This document shows, in pieces, positions 6,771 to 17,595 of a stretch of 45,896 nt of DNA. The translations under genes were made by a program, and so were the position numbers. The DNA is from Pseudobdellovibrio sp. (GTDB lineage Bacteria; Bdellovibrionota; Bdellovibrionia; Bdellovibrionales; Bdellovibrionaceae), in assembly GCA_023701385.1 (NCBI GenBank), contig JAMPXC010000025.1, positions 1 to 45,896 on the forward strand. The letters run 5' to 3'. Under the pieces are notes generated by a model that was given only the letters and a program-made list of their open reading frames with translations, did not search any database and had not been told where the DNA came from. Position 1 is the stretch's first letter. Each line of letters begins with the position of its first letter.

Positions 6771-7923
6771 ATGTCTATCGTCACAGAATTATCTGAAGTA
6801 AAAAAAGAAATTGCAGAACTTGATCAGTTTTCTGTAGAGCTTCGGGGGTATCTTTGACCTTGATCGCAAGAAAAAACGTCTCGAAGAATTAGCGATGGCG
6901 GCAGAAAATCCAGCGATGTGGACAAAACCTGCCGAAATGCAAAAATTAAATAAAGAAAAAACTTTGTTAGAAAAAGCTTTTGCGGAGTGGAATCAATTTT
7001 TCAACCGTTTAGAAGACGCTAAGGTTCTTTTAGAAATGGCCGTTGATGGTCATGACGAAAATTCATTTAAAGAAGTTAAATCAGAATTAAACGAAGTGCG
7101 TAAAATCGGCGAGCAGCTAGAATTACAAAAAGTTTTAGGTGGCGAGCTTGATGCGAACAGCACTTATCTTTCGATCAACTCTGGAGCCGGTGGAACAGAA
7201 AGCTGCGACTGGGCTGAAATGTTACTGCGCATGTACACACGCTACGCGGAACAAAACGGTTACCGCTGTGAAGTTTTAGATATGACCGAAGGTGAAGGCG
7301 CAGGGATTAAATCTTGTACGCTACTTATCTCTGGTGAATATGCTTACGGCTATTTAAAAGCTGAATCGGGAGTGCATCGTTTAGTGCGTATTTCTCCGTT
7401 TGATTCAAATGCCCGACGTCACACTTCATTTGCTTCAGTGTTTGTCTGGGCTGAGGTTGATGACGACATTCAAATCGAAGTGAAAACTGAAGATATCGAA
7501 GTTGAAACGTATCGTTCTTCAGGTGCCGGTGGTCAGCACGTCAATAAAACAGATTCAGCTGTTCGTATTCGTCACAAACCATCAGGTATTGTGGTGGCCT
7601 CACAGCAGCAACGTTCACAAGTGCAAAACCGTGAAAAAGCGATGAAAATGCTTAAAGCGGCGTTATACGAAAAAGAAATAGAGAAACGTAACAAAGAAAA
7701 AGATGCGATGAATTCCACGAAGAAAGCCAATGAGTGGGGTTCGCAAATCAGATCTTACGTTATGCATCCGTACCAGATGGTGAAAGATCACCGCACGGGG
7801 TATAGTACCAACCAAGTTGATAAAGTGATGAACGGTGAATTTTCTGATTTTATTATGGCGTATTTAAAAGCCCAAATTCACGGAACTCTGGGGCAAAATA
7901 CTGACGGTGATACTGATGTTTAA
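6771..7923 (+). CDS. prfB: Peptide chain release factor 2, programmed +1 frameshift
   Basis: RF2 reads UGA and UAA and releases the finished peptide. The first frame starts at ATG 6771 and runs 28 codons to an in-frame TGA at 6855-6857. Slipping +1 at CTT enters the main frame (GAC at 6856), and the joined protein is about 383 residues. The site CGGGGGTATCTTTGAC has the known features: an internal Shine-Dalgarno-like G run, CTT as slippery codon, and TGA followed by C. The SPF tripeptide (RISPFDSNARRH), which recognises the stop codon, and the GGQ tripeptide (SGAGGQHVNKTDSA), which triggers hydrolysis, are both intact. Length slightly exceeds E. coli RF2 (365) through the C-terminus. Confidence 0.97.
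6844..6858 (+). promoter_or_regulatory. prfB autoregulatory +1 frameshift site
   Basis: The G run at 6844-6848 can pair with the anti-Shine-Dalgarno of 16S rRNA just upstream of CTT (6852-6854) and TGA (6855-6857), with C as the next base. When RF2 is scarce, ribosomes pause at TGA and slip forward, making more RF2. The arrangement is the same as in E. coli. Confidence 0.95.
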
Positions 7924-12291: not shown

Positions 12292-12813
12292 ATGAAAAAA
12301 AACATGTTCACAACTATGATCGCAGCTTTAGTAATGATGTTTGCAATGTCGGCTCACGCTGAATTCAAAATGGGTTACGTAGACGTACAAGAAGTTATCA
12401 AAAATTCTAAAGCCGGTAAAAAAGCTTTCGAAGACTTAAAAAAAGACCAAGAAAAGAAAAACAAAGAATTAGAAAAGAAAAAAGCTGACGTAGAAAAAAT
12501 GCGTGAAGATATCGAGAAAAAGCGTTCAGTTTTATCTGAAGAAGCTTTCGGTAAAAAAGCTCAAGAGCTTCAAGAAGAAATGATGAAATTCAACCAAGGT
12601 GCGCAAAAAGCTCAAGCTGAGTTAGCTAAAAAAGAAAATGATTTAGTGGCTCCTATCGTTGATAAAATCAAAAAAATTATCGAAAAAGTAGCTAAAGACA
12701 AAGGTCTTTCTATGGTTATCCAATCTAGCCAAGCAACTCCAATCGTAGTTTACGCAGCTTCTGAAGTTAACGTAACTAACGACGTATTAACTGCTTTTGA
12801 TAAAGAGAAATAG
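12292..12813 (+). CDS. skp: Periplasmic chaperone Skp/OmpH
   Basis: The 173-residue product has a signal peptide (MKKNMFTTMIAALVMMFAMSAHA) and a mature domain opening with FKMGYVDVQEVIKNSKAGKKA, the usual Skp/OmpH N-terminal strand and helix. A Lys/Glu-rich coiled-coil of about 80 residues follows, forming the tentacles that hold unfolded outer membrane proteins. A strong ribosome site (AAAGGAG) sits 6 bases before the ATG. It lies between bamA and lpxA. In many proteobacteria lpxD and fabZ lie between skp and lpxA, but they are absent here. Confidence 0.92.
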   Translation: MKKNMFTTMIAALVMMFAMSAHAEFKMGYVDVQEVIKNSKAGKKAFEDLKKDQEKKNKELEKKKADVEKMREDIEKKRSVLSEEAFGKKAQELQEEMMKFNQGAQKAQAELAKKENDLVAPIVDKIKKIIEKVAKDKGLSMVIQSSQATPIVVYAASEVNVTNDVLTAFDKEK

Positions 12814-12833: not shown

Positions 12834-13652
12834 ATGAAAATTCATCCATCGTCGGTCATTTCGGCCGACGTGAAGTTAGAAGAAGATGTAGAGATCGGAC
12901 CTTACTGTAATATTCAAGGTCACGTAAAAATCGGCAAAGGCACTTTTATCGAAGGTCACTGCACGATCGGATCTCGTTACGGTATCGTTGAAATCGGTAA
13001 GAATAACCACATTCTTCCAGGCGCTGTGATCGGTGGACCTCCGCAAGATATCAGTTACAAAAATGAAGCTACAAAATTAATTATCGGTGATAACAACGTT
13101 ATCCGTGAATTCACAACATTCAACTTAGCAACGTCAAAAGGTGATGGTATTACGCAAATCGGTAATAACTGCTACTTTATGGCGTACTCGCACGTTGGGC
13201 ACGATTGTAAGATCGGTAACAACGTGATCGTTGCGAATAACTCGCACTTCGGTGGTCACTGCGAAGTTGAAGACAACGTAGTGATTGGTGGGGTTTGTGC
13301 CTTTAACCAATTTTCTAAAATCGGACGTTATTCATTTGTGGCAGGTTCTTCAATCGTCAATAAAGACATTCTTCCGTTTTCGCGCGCGCAAGGTAACTAT
13401 GCCGTTGTTCGTGCGACAAACAAAGTAGGTCTTTTACGTAAAGGTTTTTCAAAAGAAGAAGTAGCGAATGTGCATAAAGCCATTCGCATTATTATTATGG
13501 GTTCAGGCACTGTAGATGAAGCGTTAGCTCGCATTGAAAGTGAATGTAAACCTTCAGAAAATATCGCGACTTTAGTGCATTTCGTAAAATCATCTAAACG
13601 TGGTATCGCCATTCATCGTCAGAACGCTTCTGGCGGCGGGATCGAAGAGTAA
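12834..13652 (+). CDS. lpxA: LpxA, UDP-GlcNAc (or diamino analogue) acyltransferase
   Basis: Hexapeptide repeats (I-x-G-x-x-x form) build a left-handed beta helix over residues 1-190, followed by the alpha-helical LpxA C-terminal domain. SHVGHDC near residue 122 carries the catalytic histidine (His125 in E. coli, in HIAHDC). The enzyme adds the first hydroxyacyl chain of lipid A. In the substrate loop, E. coli NIEGLKRRGF becomes NKVGLLRKGF, so the position of Glu200 is Val; this may reflect a different sugar substrate. The next gene is a GnnA-like oxidoreductase, which suggests a 3-amino sugar substrate. A TAGACT element and AAGG lie just upstream of the ATG. Confidence 0.93.
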   Translation: MKIHPSSVISADVKLEEDVEIGPYCNIQGHVKIGKGTFIEGHCTIGSRYGIVEIGKNNHILPGAVIGGPPQDISYKNEATKLIIGDNNVIREFTTFNLATSKGDGITQIGNNCYFMAYSHVGHDCKIGNNVIVANNSHFGGHCEVEDNVVIGGVCAFNQFSKIGRYSFVAGSSIVNKDILPFSRAQGNYAVVRATNKVGLLRKGFSKEEVANVHKAIRIIIMGSGTVDEALARIESECKPSENIATLVHFVKSSKRGIAIHRQNASGGGIEE

Positions 13653-13654
13653 TT

Positions 13655-14599
13655 ATGTCAAGCAAGCCTACAGGCGCAGCCCCTAACAAGCTTCGTGGTG
13701 CAGTTATTGGTGTTGGTTATTTAGGTAACTTTCACGCACAAAAAGTAAAAGGTTCTGAGAACGCAACATTAGTTGGTGTTTTTGACCAGTATGCGCCTCA
13801 GGCTGAAAAAATCGGCGGTGAGTTAGGTGTTAAAGCTTTCAAATCGTTAGAAGAAATTCCATCACAAGTGGATTTCGTAACGATTGCAGCGGCCACTCAA
13901 GCTCACTACGATTTAGCGGCGTTCTTTTTAAAAAATAATATTCCAACTTTAGTTGAAAAACCAATTGCGGCAACAGCTGCCCAAGGTTACGAACTTTCAG
14001 CACTCGCTCGTAAAAACAATGTGATTTTTTCGGTAGGGCACATTGAGCGTTTTAATCCGTCTTATAAAATCGTTAAAGATTCAGCCACGAAGACAAAATA
14101 CTTTGAAATCAACCGTTTAGCTCCGTTTCGTGCCCGTGGTGCTGACGTGAGTGTACTTCACGATCTAATGATTCACGATTTAGATTTAGTGCAGTTCTTA
14201 TTTAATTCTGACATTGAAAAGTTTATGGTTTATGGCCACAAATTTATTAAAGATACCATTGATGATGTGTCTGTGCGTTTACAGTTAAAATCTGGCGTGC
14301 AAATCACAATCAACAATTCGCGTTTAAACCCAACGATTGTTCGTAATTACCGTGCGGTTCAACAAGACCGTACAATTTATGTAAATACAGCAACGCTTGA
14401 AGGTGAAATCTTAACTGGCGAAGCAAACGATCCATTCTATAAGACAGAAAAGTTCAACATAGAAAAAGTGGATGCTTTAAATCTTGAGATTAATCATTTT
14501 ATCCGTGCGGTTAAAAAAGAAGTTTCTGTGGCGATCACAGGTGATGAGGCCAGTCTTGCTTTAGCCAATATCGAAAAGATCTTAGCGGAGATCAAATAG
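13655..14599 (+). CDS. Gfo/Idh/MocA oxidoreductase, GnnA-like
   Basis: This 314-residue enzyme has an N-terminal Rossmann fold (AVIGVGYLGNFHAQ), the family EKPIA motif near residue 98 with the catalytic lysine, GHIERFNP, and HDLMIHDLDLVQF with the second catalytic histidine. In Acidithiobacillus and Leptospira, GnnA oxidises the 3-OH of UDP-GlcNAc and GnnB aminates it, so that LpxA makes an amide-linked lipid A. The location directly between lpxA and lpxB matches gnnA. The aminotransferase gnnB is not in the window. Bdellovibrio lipid A is reported to contain 2,3-diaminoglucose, which fits. The enzyme class is secure; the GnnA assignment is inference from context. Confidence 0.75.
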   Translation: MSSKPTGAAPNKLRGAVIGVGYLGNFHAQKVKGSENATLVGVFDQYAPQAEKIGGELGVKAFKSLEEIPSQVDFVTIAAATQAHYDLAAFFLKNNIPTLVEKPIAATAAQGYELSALARKNNVIFSVGHIERFNPSYKIVKDSATKTKYFEINRLAPFRARGADVSVLHDLMIHDLDLVQFLFNSDIEKFMVYGHKFIKDTIDDVSVRLQLKSGVQITINNSRLNPTIVRNYRAVQQDRTIYVNTATLEGEILTGEANDPFYKTEKFNIEKVDALNLEINHFIRAVKKEVSVAITGDEASLALANIEKILAEIK

Positions 14600-15774
14600 T
14601 GACGACGCCGAAGCCACAGATCATGATGGTGGCCGCCGAAGCTTCAAGTGCAACGTATGCACTTAAGCTTATGAAGTACTGGAAAGAAAATAATATCGAC
14701 GTAGAAATCTCTGGTGTGGGTTCACAAGCCATGGAAGATTTCGGCATGCGCCGTTTAGGTAAATCTGAAGAAATGGCCGTTGTGGGTATTGCGGAAGTGA
14801 TTGCTCACTACAAAGATCTAAAAGCTGTTTTTGAAAAATTAGTCGAAGAAGCCATTCGCATTAAACCTAAGTTTTTACTTTTAATGGATTACCCGGATTT
14901 CAATTTAAAGTTAGCTAAAACTTTAAAAGCAAAACTCGGCGAACACGGGATTAAGGTATTTTATTATATCTCACCGCAAGTATGGGCCTGGAGAAAAGGT
15001 CGTATTTTTGATATTAAAAAATACTGCGATAAAGTATTTTTATTATTTCCGTTTGAAAAAGACTTCTATGAACAGCATCAAGTGCCGTATGAATTTGTTG
15101 GACATCCGCTGTTAGAAGATCTTGATCCTAAGTTATTAGACCCGCAGCAAATTGAACTGGCGCGCGGAAAATACGGTATTACTCCGAATGAACGAGTCTT
15201 AGCTTTAATGCCGGGTTCACGTAAAGGTGAAATCGAGCTTAACTTCGGTGTGCAGCTTGAAGTGGCTCGCGCGTTAGCTAAGAAATACGATTTTTTACGT
15301 GTTATGATTTTAGTCGCTCCAACACTGACTAAAGAATACATCAATGATTTTGTCGTTGAAAAATTAGACTACAAAATGCCGTACATCTTAGTGCAAGATG
15401 ACCCAAATAAAATGATTTCGCTGGCGCACTATGTTTTAGCAACCTCAGGCACAGCTACACTTATGGTGGGATTACTGCAAAAACCGATGGTGATCATGTA
15501 TCGCTTAAAATGGATCACCGGCGTTATCGGAAAACTGCTAGTTCGTGGTATTCGCTTTTTTGGTTTAGTGAATCTGATTATGGATGAAGAAGTAGTGCCA
15601 GAGCGTATGCAAAGTGCTGCTGATACTGAGAAACTTATCCCATTACTTGAAAAATATATTAACGATGAAGCATTTACCAAAGCGACCATTGCAAAGCTTG
15701 CGCAAGTGCAATTTAAGTTAGGTGATGTTGGAGCTACCCAGCGCGTAGGCCAGGCGTTAGCTAAGTACTTATGA
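14599..15774 (+). CDS. lpxB: LpxB, lipid A disaccharide synthase
   Basis: The 391-residue protein is close in length to E. coli LpxB (382) and carries its family 19 glycosyltransferase signatures: MMVAAEASSATYALKLMK at the start, FLLLMDYPDFNLKLAK, YYISPQVWAWRKGR near residue 120 and LALMPGSRKGEIE near residue 205. It joins UDP-2,3-diacyl-glucosamine to lipid X to form the beta-1,6 disaccharide at the inner membrane. The GTG start shares one base with the upstream TAG, and its stop overlaps the lpxK ATG (ATGA), so translation of the three genes is coupled. Confidence 0.95.
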   Translation: MTTPKPQIMMVAAEASSATYALKLMKYWKENNIDVEISGVGSQAMEDFGMRRLGKSEEMAVVGIAEVIAHYKDLKAVFEKLVEEAIRIKPKFLLLMDYPDFNLKLAKTLKAKLGEHGIKVFYYISPQVWAWRKGRIFDIKKYCDKVFLLFPFEKDFYEQHQVPYEFVGHPLLEDLDPKLLDPQQIELARGKYGITPNERVLALMPGSRKGEIELNFGVQLEVARALAKKYDFLRVMILVAPTLTKEYINDFVVEKLDYKMPYILVQDDPNKMISLAHYVLATSGTATLMVGLLQKPMVIMYRLKWITGVIGKLLVRGIRFFGLVNLIMDEEVVPERMQSAADTEKLIPLLEKYINDEAFTKATIAKLAQVQFKLGDVGATQRVGQALAKYL

Positions 15775-16751
15775 AATACTTAAATCCCTACCGTTTAGCA
15801 GTAGATACGAAAAATCTTTTTTACGAAAAAGGTTGGTTAAAGCCACAGGCTTTTAATATTCCGGTAATCTCGGTAGGGAATCTCACAACCGGCGGTACCG
15901 GAAAAACTCCGGTCGTCTTAGAGTTAATTGCTTTACTCAAAGATAAATCAATTCTCGTTGTTTCTAAAAGTTATAAAGCTAAACTTCCACAACCAGCAGA
16001 AGTGACTGAAGAAAATTTAAAACATACGTTTATGTATGGCGATGAACCGTGTTTAATCAAAAAAATGGCTCCACACGTAAAAGTATGGAGTGGGCCACAT
16101 AAGACAGACACTGTTGAATTTGCGCTTGAGTATTACCAGTTTAATAAAATTAAAGTGGATGTGGTGATCGTTGATGATGCGTTTTCACATCGCGCTTTAA
16201 AACGCGATTTAGATATTGTGTTGATTGATGTTTCGCAACCGATGTCGCATTACCGTTTACTGCCACTCGGGCATTTACGTGAAGATTTAGAAGAGGTTTT
16301 TAGATCACAATTAGTGATTTTGACAAAAACTAATAATGCCAACTCTGAAACTTTAAAGTTCTTTCAAGAGTTTTTATCGGCTAAGAAACACCCATTTATC
16401 GAATCACAGGCTATTTCAACAGTGAATGCTGAGAGTAAGAAGATTTTCGTGTATTCGGCCATCGGTAACCCGGGTCAGCTAAAGGCTAACTTACAAAAAT
16501 CAGGTTACATTGTGGTTAATCATTTAGAATTTCCGGATCATCATCCGTTTTCAGAATCAGAGCAAAAAGATATTTTAAAACAATGGCAAAGTAAATATGC
16601 CGATAGTATTCTGTGCGCCACGGAAAAAGACCTGGTTAAAGTGACCCATGCTGAATTGCGTGCGCAAACCCGGGCCATCGCCTTAAAACTTCAGTTTTCG
16701 ACCCAAGATAAGGATATGCTAAATGCGAAAATTAGCCAGATCAGTAAGTAG
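15771..16751 (+). CDS. lpxK: LpxK, tetraacyldisaccharide 4'-kinase
   Basis: The 326-residue length matches E. coli LpxK (328). The Walker A motif GNLTTGGTGKTP lies at residues 36-47, and VDVVIVDDAFSHRALKRDLDI holds the acidic pair that coordinates magnesium. LpxK phosphorylates the 4' position of the lipid A disaccharide in the inner leaflet. Bdellovibrio bacteriovorus lipid A is described as phosphate-free in its final form, so if this organism is similar the phosphate would have to be removed or replaced later. The gene overlaps lpxB by 4 bases and the next gene by 29 bases. Confidence 0.93.
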   Translation: MKYLNPYRLAVDTKNLFYEKGWLKPQAFNIPVISVGNLTTGGTGKTPVVLELIALLKDKSILVVSKSYKAKLPQPAEVTEENLKHTFMYGDEPCLIKKMAPHVKVWSGPHKTDTVEFALEYYQFNKIKVDVVIVDDAFSHRALKRDLDIVLIDVSQPMSHYRLLPLGHLREDLEEVFRSQLVILTKTNNANSETLKFFQEFLSAKKHPFIESQAISTVNAESKKIFVYSAIGNPGQLKANLQKSGYIVVNHLEFPDHHPFSESEQKDILKQWQSKYADSILCATEKDLVKVTHAELRAQTRAIALKLQFSTQDKDMLNAKISQISK

Positions 16752-17595
16752 CATTTATGCCTTTAGCGTGCATTTGTTGCCGGATTGGTTTAATACGCTG
16801 TTTGCCAAGTTCTTAGCTTGGTTATGGGTTGATGTTTTAAAACTGCGTACAAAAGTTGTTTATAACAATATCGATATCGCTTTTCCGGGGACGCCGCTTG
16901 AAACAAAAAAACTATGGATGAAAAAAAGTATCTACATTCTGGTGAGAAGTATTGTTGATGTGGCTCGCATTCCTTATTTAAAAGACGAGTGGATTAAAAA
17001 GAATGTTATTTTTCACGGCGTAGAGAATCTGCCCCAGGATCAGGGTTTTTTTGTCTTAACATTGCACTTAGGCAGTGGTGACTTAGCCGCGGCCATTATC
17101 AGTGAAAAACTAGTACCATTAAGTTTGATTTCAAAAAGATTTAGCAGCGAATTTGCTGACGAATTTTGGTTTTCACTGCGTACTCAGTCAAAAACAGAAT
17201 TTATCGATGCCCATGGTAAGAATAATGCTTTTGAAATTTTAAAAGCCCTTCGTTTAAAACGCGGAGTGGTTTTTGTGCTCGATCAGTTTATGGGTAAGCC
17301 TTATGGTATTGAAACCGAGTTCTTTGGTAAGAAAACAGGCACCGCCTATGGTCTAGCTTTGTTTGCACAAAAGACAAAGGCTCCGGTAGTTCCACTTTAT
17401 ACATATTGGGATGACGACAATAAGCTACATATAGGTATTGATCCTGTAGTTAAAATTGACGACGTACAGACAGACGATAAACTAGAAGCTCAACGAATTA
17501 TTACGAATCGTTTTAACGCAGCCGTGGAAAGTATCATAAAGCGTTGGCCAGCCCAGTGGATGTGGGTGCATAGACGCTGGAAGGATTTCGAATGA
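16723..17595 (+). CDS. LpxL/HtrB-family lipid A acyltransferase
   Basis: A 290-residue member of the LpxL/LpxM acyltransferase family. An N-terminal hydrophobic segment (about residues 8-40) anchors it in the inner membrane. HLGSGD near residue 115 is the catalytic H-x-x-x-x-D motif, and VVFVLDQFMGKPYG with FFGKKTGTAYGLALFA are the second family block. It transfers a secondary acyl chain to the Kdo-lipid A precursor. The gene overlaps lpxK and runs into the next gene through an ATGA overlap. Which acyl chain or position is used cannot be read from sequence. Confidence 0.88.
   Translation: MRKLARSVSSIYAFSVHLLPDWFNTLFAKFLAWLWVDVLKLRTKVVYNNIDIAFPGTPLETKKLWMKKSIYILVRSIVDVARIPYLKDEWIKKNVIFHGVENLPQDQGFFVLTLHLGSGDLAAAIISEKLVPLSLISKRFSSEFADEFWFSLRTQSKTEFIDAHGKNNAFEILKALRLKRGVVFVLDQFMGKPYGIETEFFGKKTGTAYGLALFAQKTKAPVVPLYTYWDDDNKLHIGIDPVVKIDDVQTDDKLEAQRIITNRFNAAVESIIKRWPAQWMWVHRRWKDFE

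Follow-up and report, generated by a model that had tools for sequence, protein, structure and literature searches.

The locus raises the question of why a relative of predatory bacteria carries a dehydrogenase gene of the Gfo/Idh family flanked by lpxA and lpxB, and where in the genome a matching aminotransferase might be found. The window, i.e., the whole stretch of 45,896 nucleotides that was analyzed, lies on contig C58 of a Pseudobdellovibrio sp. genome of 3,184,588 bases (96 contigs, 95% complete). An earlier note had read the interval from 12834 to 14599, which comprises lpxA and the Gfo/Idh gene, as pointing to a lipid A built on 2,3-diamino-2,3-dideoxyglucose. All genes concerned are located on the forward strand, namely skp (12292 to 12813; PF03938, 5.7e-32), lpxA for the UDP-sugar 3-acyltransferase, proposed here to acylate a 3-amine (12834 to 13652; TIGR01852, 294 bits, cut-off 231), the Gfo/Idh gene, designated gnnA for a UDP-GlcNAc 3-dehydrogenase (13655 to 14599), lpxB for the lipid A disaccharide synthase (14599 to 15774; TIGR00215, 245 bits, cut-off 190), and, in the same gene run, lpxK for the 4′-kinase (15771 to 16751; TIGR00682, 178 bits, cut-off 92) and a gene for an LpxL-type late acyltransferase (16723 to 17595; PF03279, 3.4e-37). 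lpxA and gnnA are separated by 2 bases, and gnnA and lpxB overlap by 1 base. The same-strand run begins with a bamA-like gene (a label given by eye, with no family profile behind it) and continues beyond the LpxL-type gene with a DUF3108 gene and a heptosyltransferase-family gene; neighbors overlap or lie no more than 50 bases apart throughout. Elsewhere in the window, upstream of an open reading frame at 6895 to 7923, positions 6840 to 6860 contain a gggggtatctttgac stretch, which resembles the site of programmed +1 frameshifting in prfB, the gene for release factor 2.

Since skp directly precedes lpxA with only 20 bases between them, neither lpxD nor fabZ is located there, in agreement with the earlier note. 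LpxD is encoded on contig C37 (TIGR01853, 1e-88 over the whole protein). PF04613, the profile of the LpxD N-terminal domain, gave nothing over its cut-off in eight of eight genomes (weak matches in three) and no match in the host genome, LpxD itself (L326) included, whereas TIGR01853 found LpxD in seven of seven genomes; LpxD is thus diverged at its N terminus rather than missing. lpxK is retained in the run, although the lipid A of Bdellovibrio bacteriovorus is described in two reports as carrying mannose in place of phosphate (PMC4528228, PMC7468853); phosphate may be added and later removed, or the genus of our organism may differ from B. bacteriovorus in this respect.

The product of the gene at 13655 to 14599 has the two-domain fold of the Gfo/Idh family, as indicated by its match to PF01408 (8e-26) and by the Gfo/Idh-type structures at the top of its fold list. 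Among PDB sequences, phmmer ranked 7bvj first (1e-38; next match, 1.7e-22), and the predicted structure, computed from an alignment of 28 sequences (mean pLDDT, 94.3), was closest to 7bvj (Z 38.1) and 7bvk (Z 37.8), followed by an entry with Z 34.4; WlbA (3q2k), the uronic-acid counterpart, reached Z 32.3. Both top entries are titled UDP-N-acetylglucosamine 3-dehydrogenase GnnA of Acidithiobacillus ferrooxidans. An EKP motif and an H-D pair, taken to be catalytic, are invariant in the A. ferrooxidans chain, the host protein, and eight relatives from the phylum. The best NCBIfam match was NF040723 (UDP-GlcNAc 3-dehydrogenase), at 155 bits below the cut-off of 450 of this model, which was built for archaea. 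Judged by sequence and modeled fold, the gene encodes a GnnA-type dehydrogenase, probably the first enzyme of diaminosugar formation, and it is the only PF01408 match in the host genome at E 1e-6. The statement of the earlier note that a Gfo/Idh gene lies directly between lpxA and lpxB is thereby confirmed.

This position is the rule among phylum genomes that carry gnnA. Matches at E 1e-20 were found in 94 of 144 sampled genomes (95 matches in total), and 90 of these loci were inspected. The order lpxA-gnnA-lpxB was kept in all 30 of the best loci, so the arrangement is not due to chance, and lpxA and lpxB flanked gnnA on one strand in 55 of 60 further loci. The other five comprise one locus with the order lpxA-aminotransferase-gnnA-lpxB (L210), three that are cut by contig ends, and one with neither flank (L217). 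When named genomes were scanned with the GnnA alignment, a DegT-family aminotransferase was located near gnnA in 25 of the best 80 loci, two Geobacter loci with the order lpxA-gnnA-gnnB-lpxB (L231 and L233) being among these 25, and lpxB was present without a nearby aminotransferase in 29, e.g., in Legionella, with some stretches ending at contig edges. The neighborhood is not strictly defining, since some GlcN3N producers place gnnA elsewhere.

Our preferred reading, to which we assign a probability of roughly 0.75, is that the operon serves the synthesis of a lipid A based on 2,3-diamino-2,3-dideoxyglucose by a split pathway with a swapped transaminase. GnnA would oxidize the 3-OH of UDP-GlcNAc, a WbpE-type aminotransferase encoded on contig C23 would convert the 3-ketone to an amine, and LpxA would transfer an amide-linked acyl chain onto this 3-amine, after which LpxC, LpxD, LpxB, and LpxK would act as usual. 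The sequence-based part of this pathway consists of the identity and position of GnnA, the single strong aminotransferase, the single Gfo/Idh match, and the presence of LpxD in the genome, from which we infer the substrate of the aminotransferase, the choice made by LpxA, and the final lipid. The diaminosugar reading of the earlier note thus stands with regard to GnnA and a plausible second enzyme, but it gains nothing from the LpxA residue it had cited, and the second enzyme differs between relatives.

That residue was Glu200 of E. coli LpxA (6p9p, which we take to be the E. coli protein), aligned to which the host LpxA indeed reads Val. In an alignment of LpxA structure chains, two chains, presumably from Leptospira and Campylobacter, have Val at this site and three others have Glu, so the substitution looked good at first as a marker of selectivity. 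It was dropped because Val, Ile, or Met occurs in 89 of 89 LpxA proteins labeled as accompanied by gnnA (including L159 and L161, whose gnnA matches were weak, at 77 and 84 bits) and Val or Ile in 12 of 12 labeled as lacking it (among them L153 and L160, which carry a cut or weak gnnA); in the ten of these 12 with lpxA abutting lpxB, the site is Ile in seven and Val in three. A screen for LpxA columns that track gnnA within the host order (32 genomes with and 5 without gnnA) retained just two, E. coli positions 95 and 214, and Phe95 was discarded as a marker as it is also present in 4eqy, presumably a Burkholderia protein. The position of E. coli His125, to which we ascribe a catalytic role, is His in all 37 order genomes compared, the host included. 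At the site of E. coli His160, Asn (27 of 32) or Ser (3 of 32) was observed in genomes with gnnA, and residues other than His in all five without.

None of 24 positions that we take to be LpxA contacts cleanly separated the 32 order genomes with gnnA from the five without it; position 68 leaned, being Ile in 25 of 32 with gnnA and Val or Leu in all five that lack it, with Ile also in E. coli. The lack of a clean separation would also suit an LpxA that accepts both UDP-GlcNAc and UDP-GlcNAc3N and so gives rise to a hybrid lipid A of mixed glucosamine and diaminoglucose. Such a hybrid backbone is reported for Capnocytophaga canimorsus, which has gnnA and gnnB, in PMC3342949; the same source, however, credits that organism with two lpxA genes, whereas the host genome has one LpxA and one LpxD, and we consider a hybrid unlikely here.

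For the second step of the diaminosugar pathway, the window was searched for GnnB-like sequences with both aminotransferase types described below (tblastn, E 1e-3), and none was found, as the earlier note had stated for gnnB. The genome-wide search that it had proposed did yield a candidate, so the genome is not devoid of a GnnB homologue, but this candidate is of the WbpE type and unlinked to gnnA. Specifically, PF01041 (DegT/DnrJ/EryC1) gave one strong match in the host genome (1.5e-122) besides four at 1.7e-7 or weaker, and the corresponding gene is located on contig C23 directly upstream of kdsA, encoding KDO-8-phosphate synthase (NF003543, 377 bits). kdsA adjoins the gene in 12 of 12 close orthologues, a lipopolysaccharide context. 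The best solved relative by sequence is WbpE (7.7e-121), and WbpE was also the best match of the predicted structure (mean pLDDT, 92.2; Z 51.8; 52% identity), closely followed in the fold list by other sugar aminotransferases, several of which (QdtB, DesV) presumably act at C3. The protein has the PLP fold of the DegT/DnrJ/EryC1 family with its Schiff-base lysine: Lys185 is invariant in the alignment and aligns to the Lys185 region of WbpE. An assignment as KdnA (8-amino-Kdo) was dropped, as KdnA (5k8b) matched at 4.2e-40 compared with 7.7e-121 for WbpE.

In a quick tree of 87 aminotransferases, computed without bootstrap and with long-branch warnings for some rows, 24 proteins encoded next to gnnA formed a clade (SH-aLRT 98), and the C23 protein grouped with WbpE (SH-aLRT 98), outside this GnnB clade. 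A second quick tree of 94 proteins, likewise without bootstrap, united 19 proteins from families f1, f2, and f5 of the host order in a single clade (99), which belongs to the WbpE side (92); the proteins of two other genomes of this order, G139 (family f4) and G100 (family f6), were placed on the side of GnnB. Of 19 class-discriminating columns, 13 have a WbpE-like residue in the C23 protein, 3 a GnnB-like residue, and 3 a residue that fits neither class; the gnnA-adjacent rows L210 and L269 were excluded from the GnnB group for this comparison, L269 being on the WbpE side in both trees. By these sequence-based measures, the C23 aminotransferase is not a GnnB by descent; it may work like one.

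The affiliation with WbpE and the 13 WbpE-like columns are also what would be expected if the enzyme supplied a 3-amino uronic acid for an O-antigen or a capsule and lipid A were of the ordinary kind, with GnnA feeding the polymer or persisting as a relic. WbpE aminates C3 of UDP-3-keto-GlcNAcA, the product of WbpB, according to PMC10622841. WbpE-side proteins moreover occur in two phylum genomes with no LpxA match (G009 and G033), so the WbpE type alone does not imply lipid A, and the host genome has one UDP-sugar 6-dehydrogenase, which best fits UDP-glucose 6-dehydrogenase models. Against this possibility, a search of the 95% complete host genome for a WbpB-type 3-dehydrogenase (PF01408, E 1e-6) returned none besides GnnA. 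WbpB is a member of the Gfo/Idh family, and its homologue WlbA appears in the fold list of GnnA. With one Gfo/Idh match and one strong DegT match, the genome shows no partner for the C23 enzyme other than GnnA and none for GnnA other than the C23 enzyme, nor any further candidate that could supply a 3-keto sugar, with the caveat that at 95% completeness a second Gfo/Idh or DegT gene may have been missed. Furthermore, among the 12 genomes with a C23-type orthologue, the UDP-sugar 6-dehydrogenase family has no match in one (G089) and only a single match near E 1e-7 in each of three others (G061, G092, and G094), which favors UDP-3-keto-GlcNAc over a uronic acid as the substrate. The constant proximity of kdsA and the placement of gnnA among lpx genes point in the same direction, and the uronic-acid explanation appears to us improbable, by a shade more so than a hybrid lipid A.

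The diaminosugar pathway would not use the same second enzyme throughout the family. Of its 21 genomes, the host included, 12 have a C23-type gene beside kdsA (in G133, at L107 and also L046), whereas eight others, all of genus g2, lack this type and have instead one member each of a second DegT cluster, here called type Y; types were assigned by clustering of 55 DegT proteins. Type Y is 31 to 32% identical to the C23 protein, and its best solved match is likewise WbpE (2.8e-51). None of the 31 DegT genes examined in the other 11 C23-type genomes is of type Y; a DegT protein on contig C8 of G107 shares 22% identity with type Y across 305 residues and so does not belong to it. Two of the eight type-Y genomes (G048 and G118) have in addition a more distant WbpE-like protein that is not located beside kdsA. 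Genus g2 is thus split into eight genomes with type Y and five with the C23 type. KdsA of the eight type-Y genomes is 46 to 49% identical to that of the host, compared with 67 to 86% in the others, and the two kdsA types track the two aminotransferase types as far as searched (L090 to L097 versus L036 to L047).

In one genome (G065), type Y occupies the very site held by the aminotransferase-kdsA pair in G061 and G104. One flank has a ManC-type gene and two additional groups in common with G061, and the opposite flank shares a PF03706 membrane-protein group, a DUF2062 group, and three further groups, the PF03706 and DUF2062 names being taken from members in L128 and L131. The remaining seven Y genes lie elsewhere, next to kdsA in G083 and 3 to 5 kb from kdsA in G073, G069, and G048. 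That the two types replace each other is expected if both do the same job. The twenty-first family genome (G127) lacks both aminotransferase types as well as any kdsA match, which suggests a gap in its assembly. A tentative scenario, for which we would give slightly less than even odds, is that within one order gnnA kept its place between lpxA and lpxB, whereas the second enzyme was replaced at least twice: by a WbpE-type enzyme that came from the uronic-acid pathway of O-antigen formation and has turned to the neutral sugar, and by a distant DegT protein in some genomes of g2 (the genus being Bdellovibrio proper if G073 is HD100), in one genome at the exact locus and with displacement of kdsA. 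The ManC-type nucleotidyltransferase/mannose-6-phosphate isomerase gene (L131, 9085 to 10461; group also in L130 and L140) is found beside the aminotransferase locus in three g2 genomes and is a possible source of GDP-mannose for a neutral lipid A.

Across the host order, a candidate aminotransferase is present in 30 of 32 genomes with gnnA, distributed over families f1 (20 of 21), f2 (5 of 6), f3 (one, in G029, on the WbpE side), f4 (one), f5 (two), and f6 (one), compared with 0 or 1 of the 5 genomes in which lpxA is directly followed by lpxB without gnnA (G014, G053, G109, G076, and G115). In three of these five, no DegT gene was found at E 1e-10; G053 lacks the C23 type, and G076 has four DegT genes. 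The count varies between 0 and 1 because one of these four (L222) is basal among the 87 proteins of the first tree but joins the GnnB side among the 94 of the second. Phylogenetically independent pairs on the LpxA tree numbered two when restricted to supported branches (four on all branches; median p, 0.5), so that joint loss of gnnA and aminotransferase is only suggestive, the independent events being too few for significance to be within reach. Outside the host order, DegT matches are common (127 of 144 phylum genomes at E 1e-20). gnnA without a candidate aminotransferase was found in G127 and in G136. The latter genome, whose listed completeness is 100%, retains an open gnnA flanked by lpxA and lpxB (L024, 1501 to 2418) and has no DegT gene at E 1e-10, which makes it a true exception to the pairing. 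That GnnA has a function here that needs no transaminase, as G136 might suggest, is very improbable, given a single such genome (G127 perhaps a second) among the 32 in the order and an aminotransferase that the host genome does carry. As a separate observation, 6 of 22 genomes searched gave no LpxA match at E 1e-20 (G009, G017, G025, G033, and G040, of family f15, and G028); these may lack lipopolysaccharide.

Work by Schwudke in 2003 is said to have described the neutral lipid A of B. bacteriovorus HD100 with a diaminoglucose backbone. A literature search that had most subscription journals outside its reach found no paper treating Bdellovibrio together with gnnA and none on a diamino lipid A backbone in Bdellovibrio. 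Amide-linked chains at position 3 give lipid A greater chemical stability, and lipid A of this kind often activates TLR4 weakly. Because predatory bacteria are under study as living antibiotics, knowing which genes determine their lipid A has practical value. Our analysis names candidates for the missing aminotransferase of the family that a search for GnnB by neighborhood or close homology would miss: in this relative of predatory bacteria, the likely second enzyme is encoded outside the lipid A operon and resembles an enzyme of an O-antigen sugar pathway.

Among known systems, the synthesis of GlcN3N by GnnA and GnnB is credited to A. ferrooxidans in PMC3342949 and PMC8036547; the latter also names Bacteriovorax stolpii in a list that adjoins a comment about GlcN3N backbones. 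The host shares with A. ferrooxidans a homologous GnnA (1e-38; Z 38.1) and with the Geobacter loci the placement of gnnA beside lpxA and lpxB; unlike in A. ferrooxidans, for whose GnnB the gnnA-adjacent clade stands here, the host aminotransferase is encoded away from gnnA and groups with WbpE in the trees. WbpE of the Pseudomonas aeruginosa O-antigen pathway, acting on UDP-3-keto-GlcNAcA, is the closest solved structure of the C23 enzyme, but the host has no visible WbpB-type partner besides GnnA, and its gene lies beside kdsA rather than in an O-antigen cluster. In Mesorhizobium loti, gnnA and gnnB are also split, although there, according to PMC5644692, both are apart from lpxA and lpxB, whereas gnnA of the host lies between them. 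B. bacteriovorus HD100, if represented by G073, belongs to the same family and yet has the type-Y aminotransferase (L085) in place of the kdsA-linked type. What is new in comparison with these systems is the combination of a split pathway with a swapped second step, the second enzyme being of the WbpE type and encoded beside kdsA in the host, of type Y in some g2 genomes, and on the GnnB side in two more families of the order.
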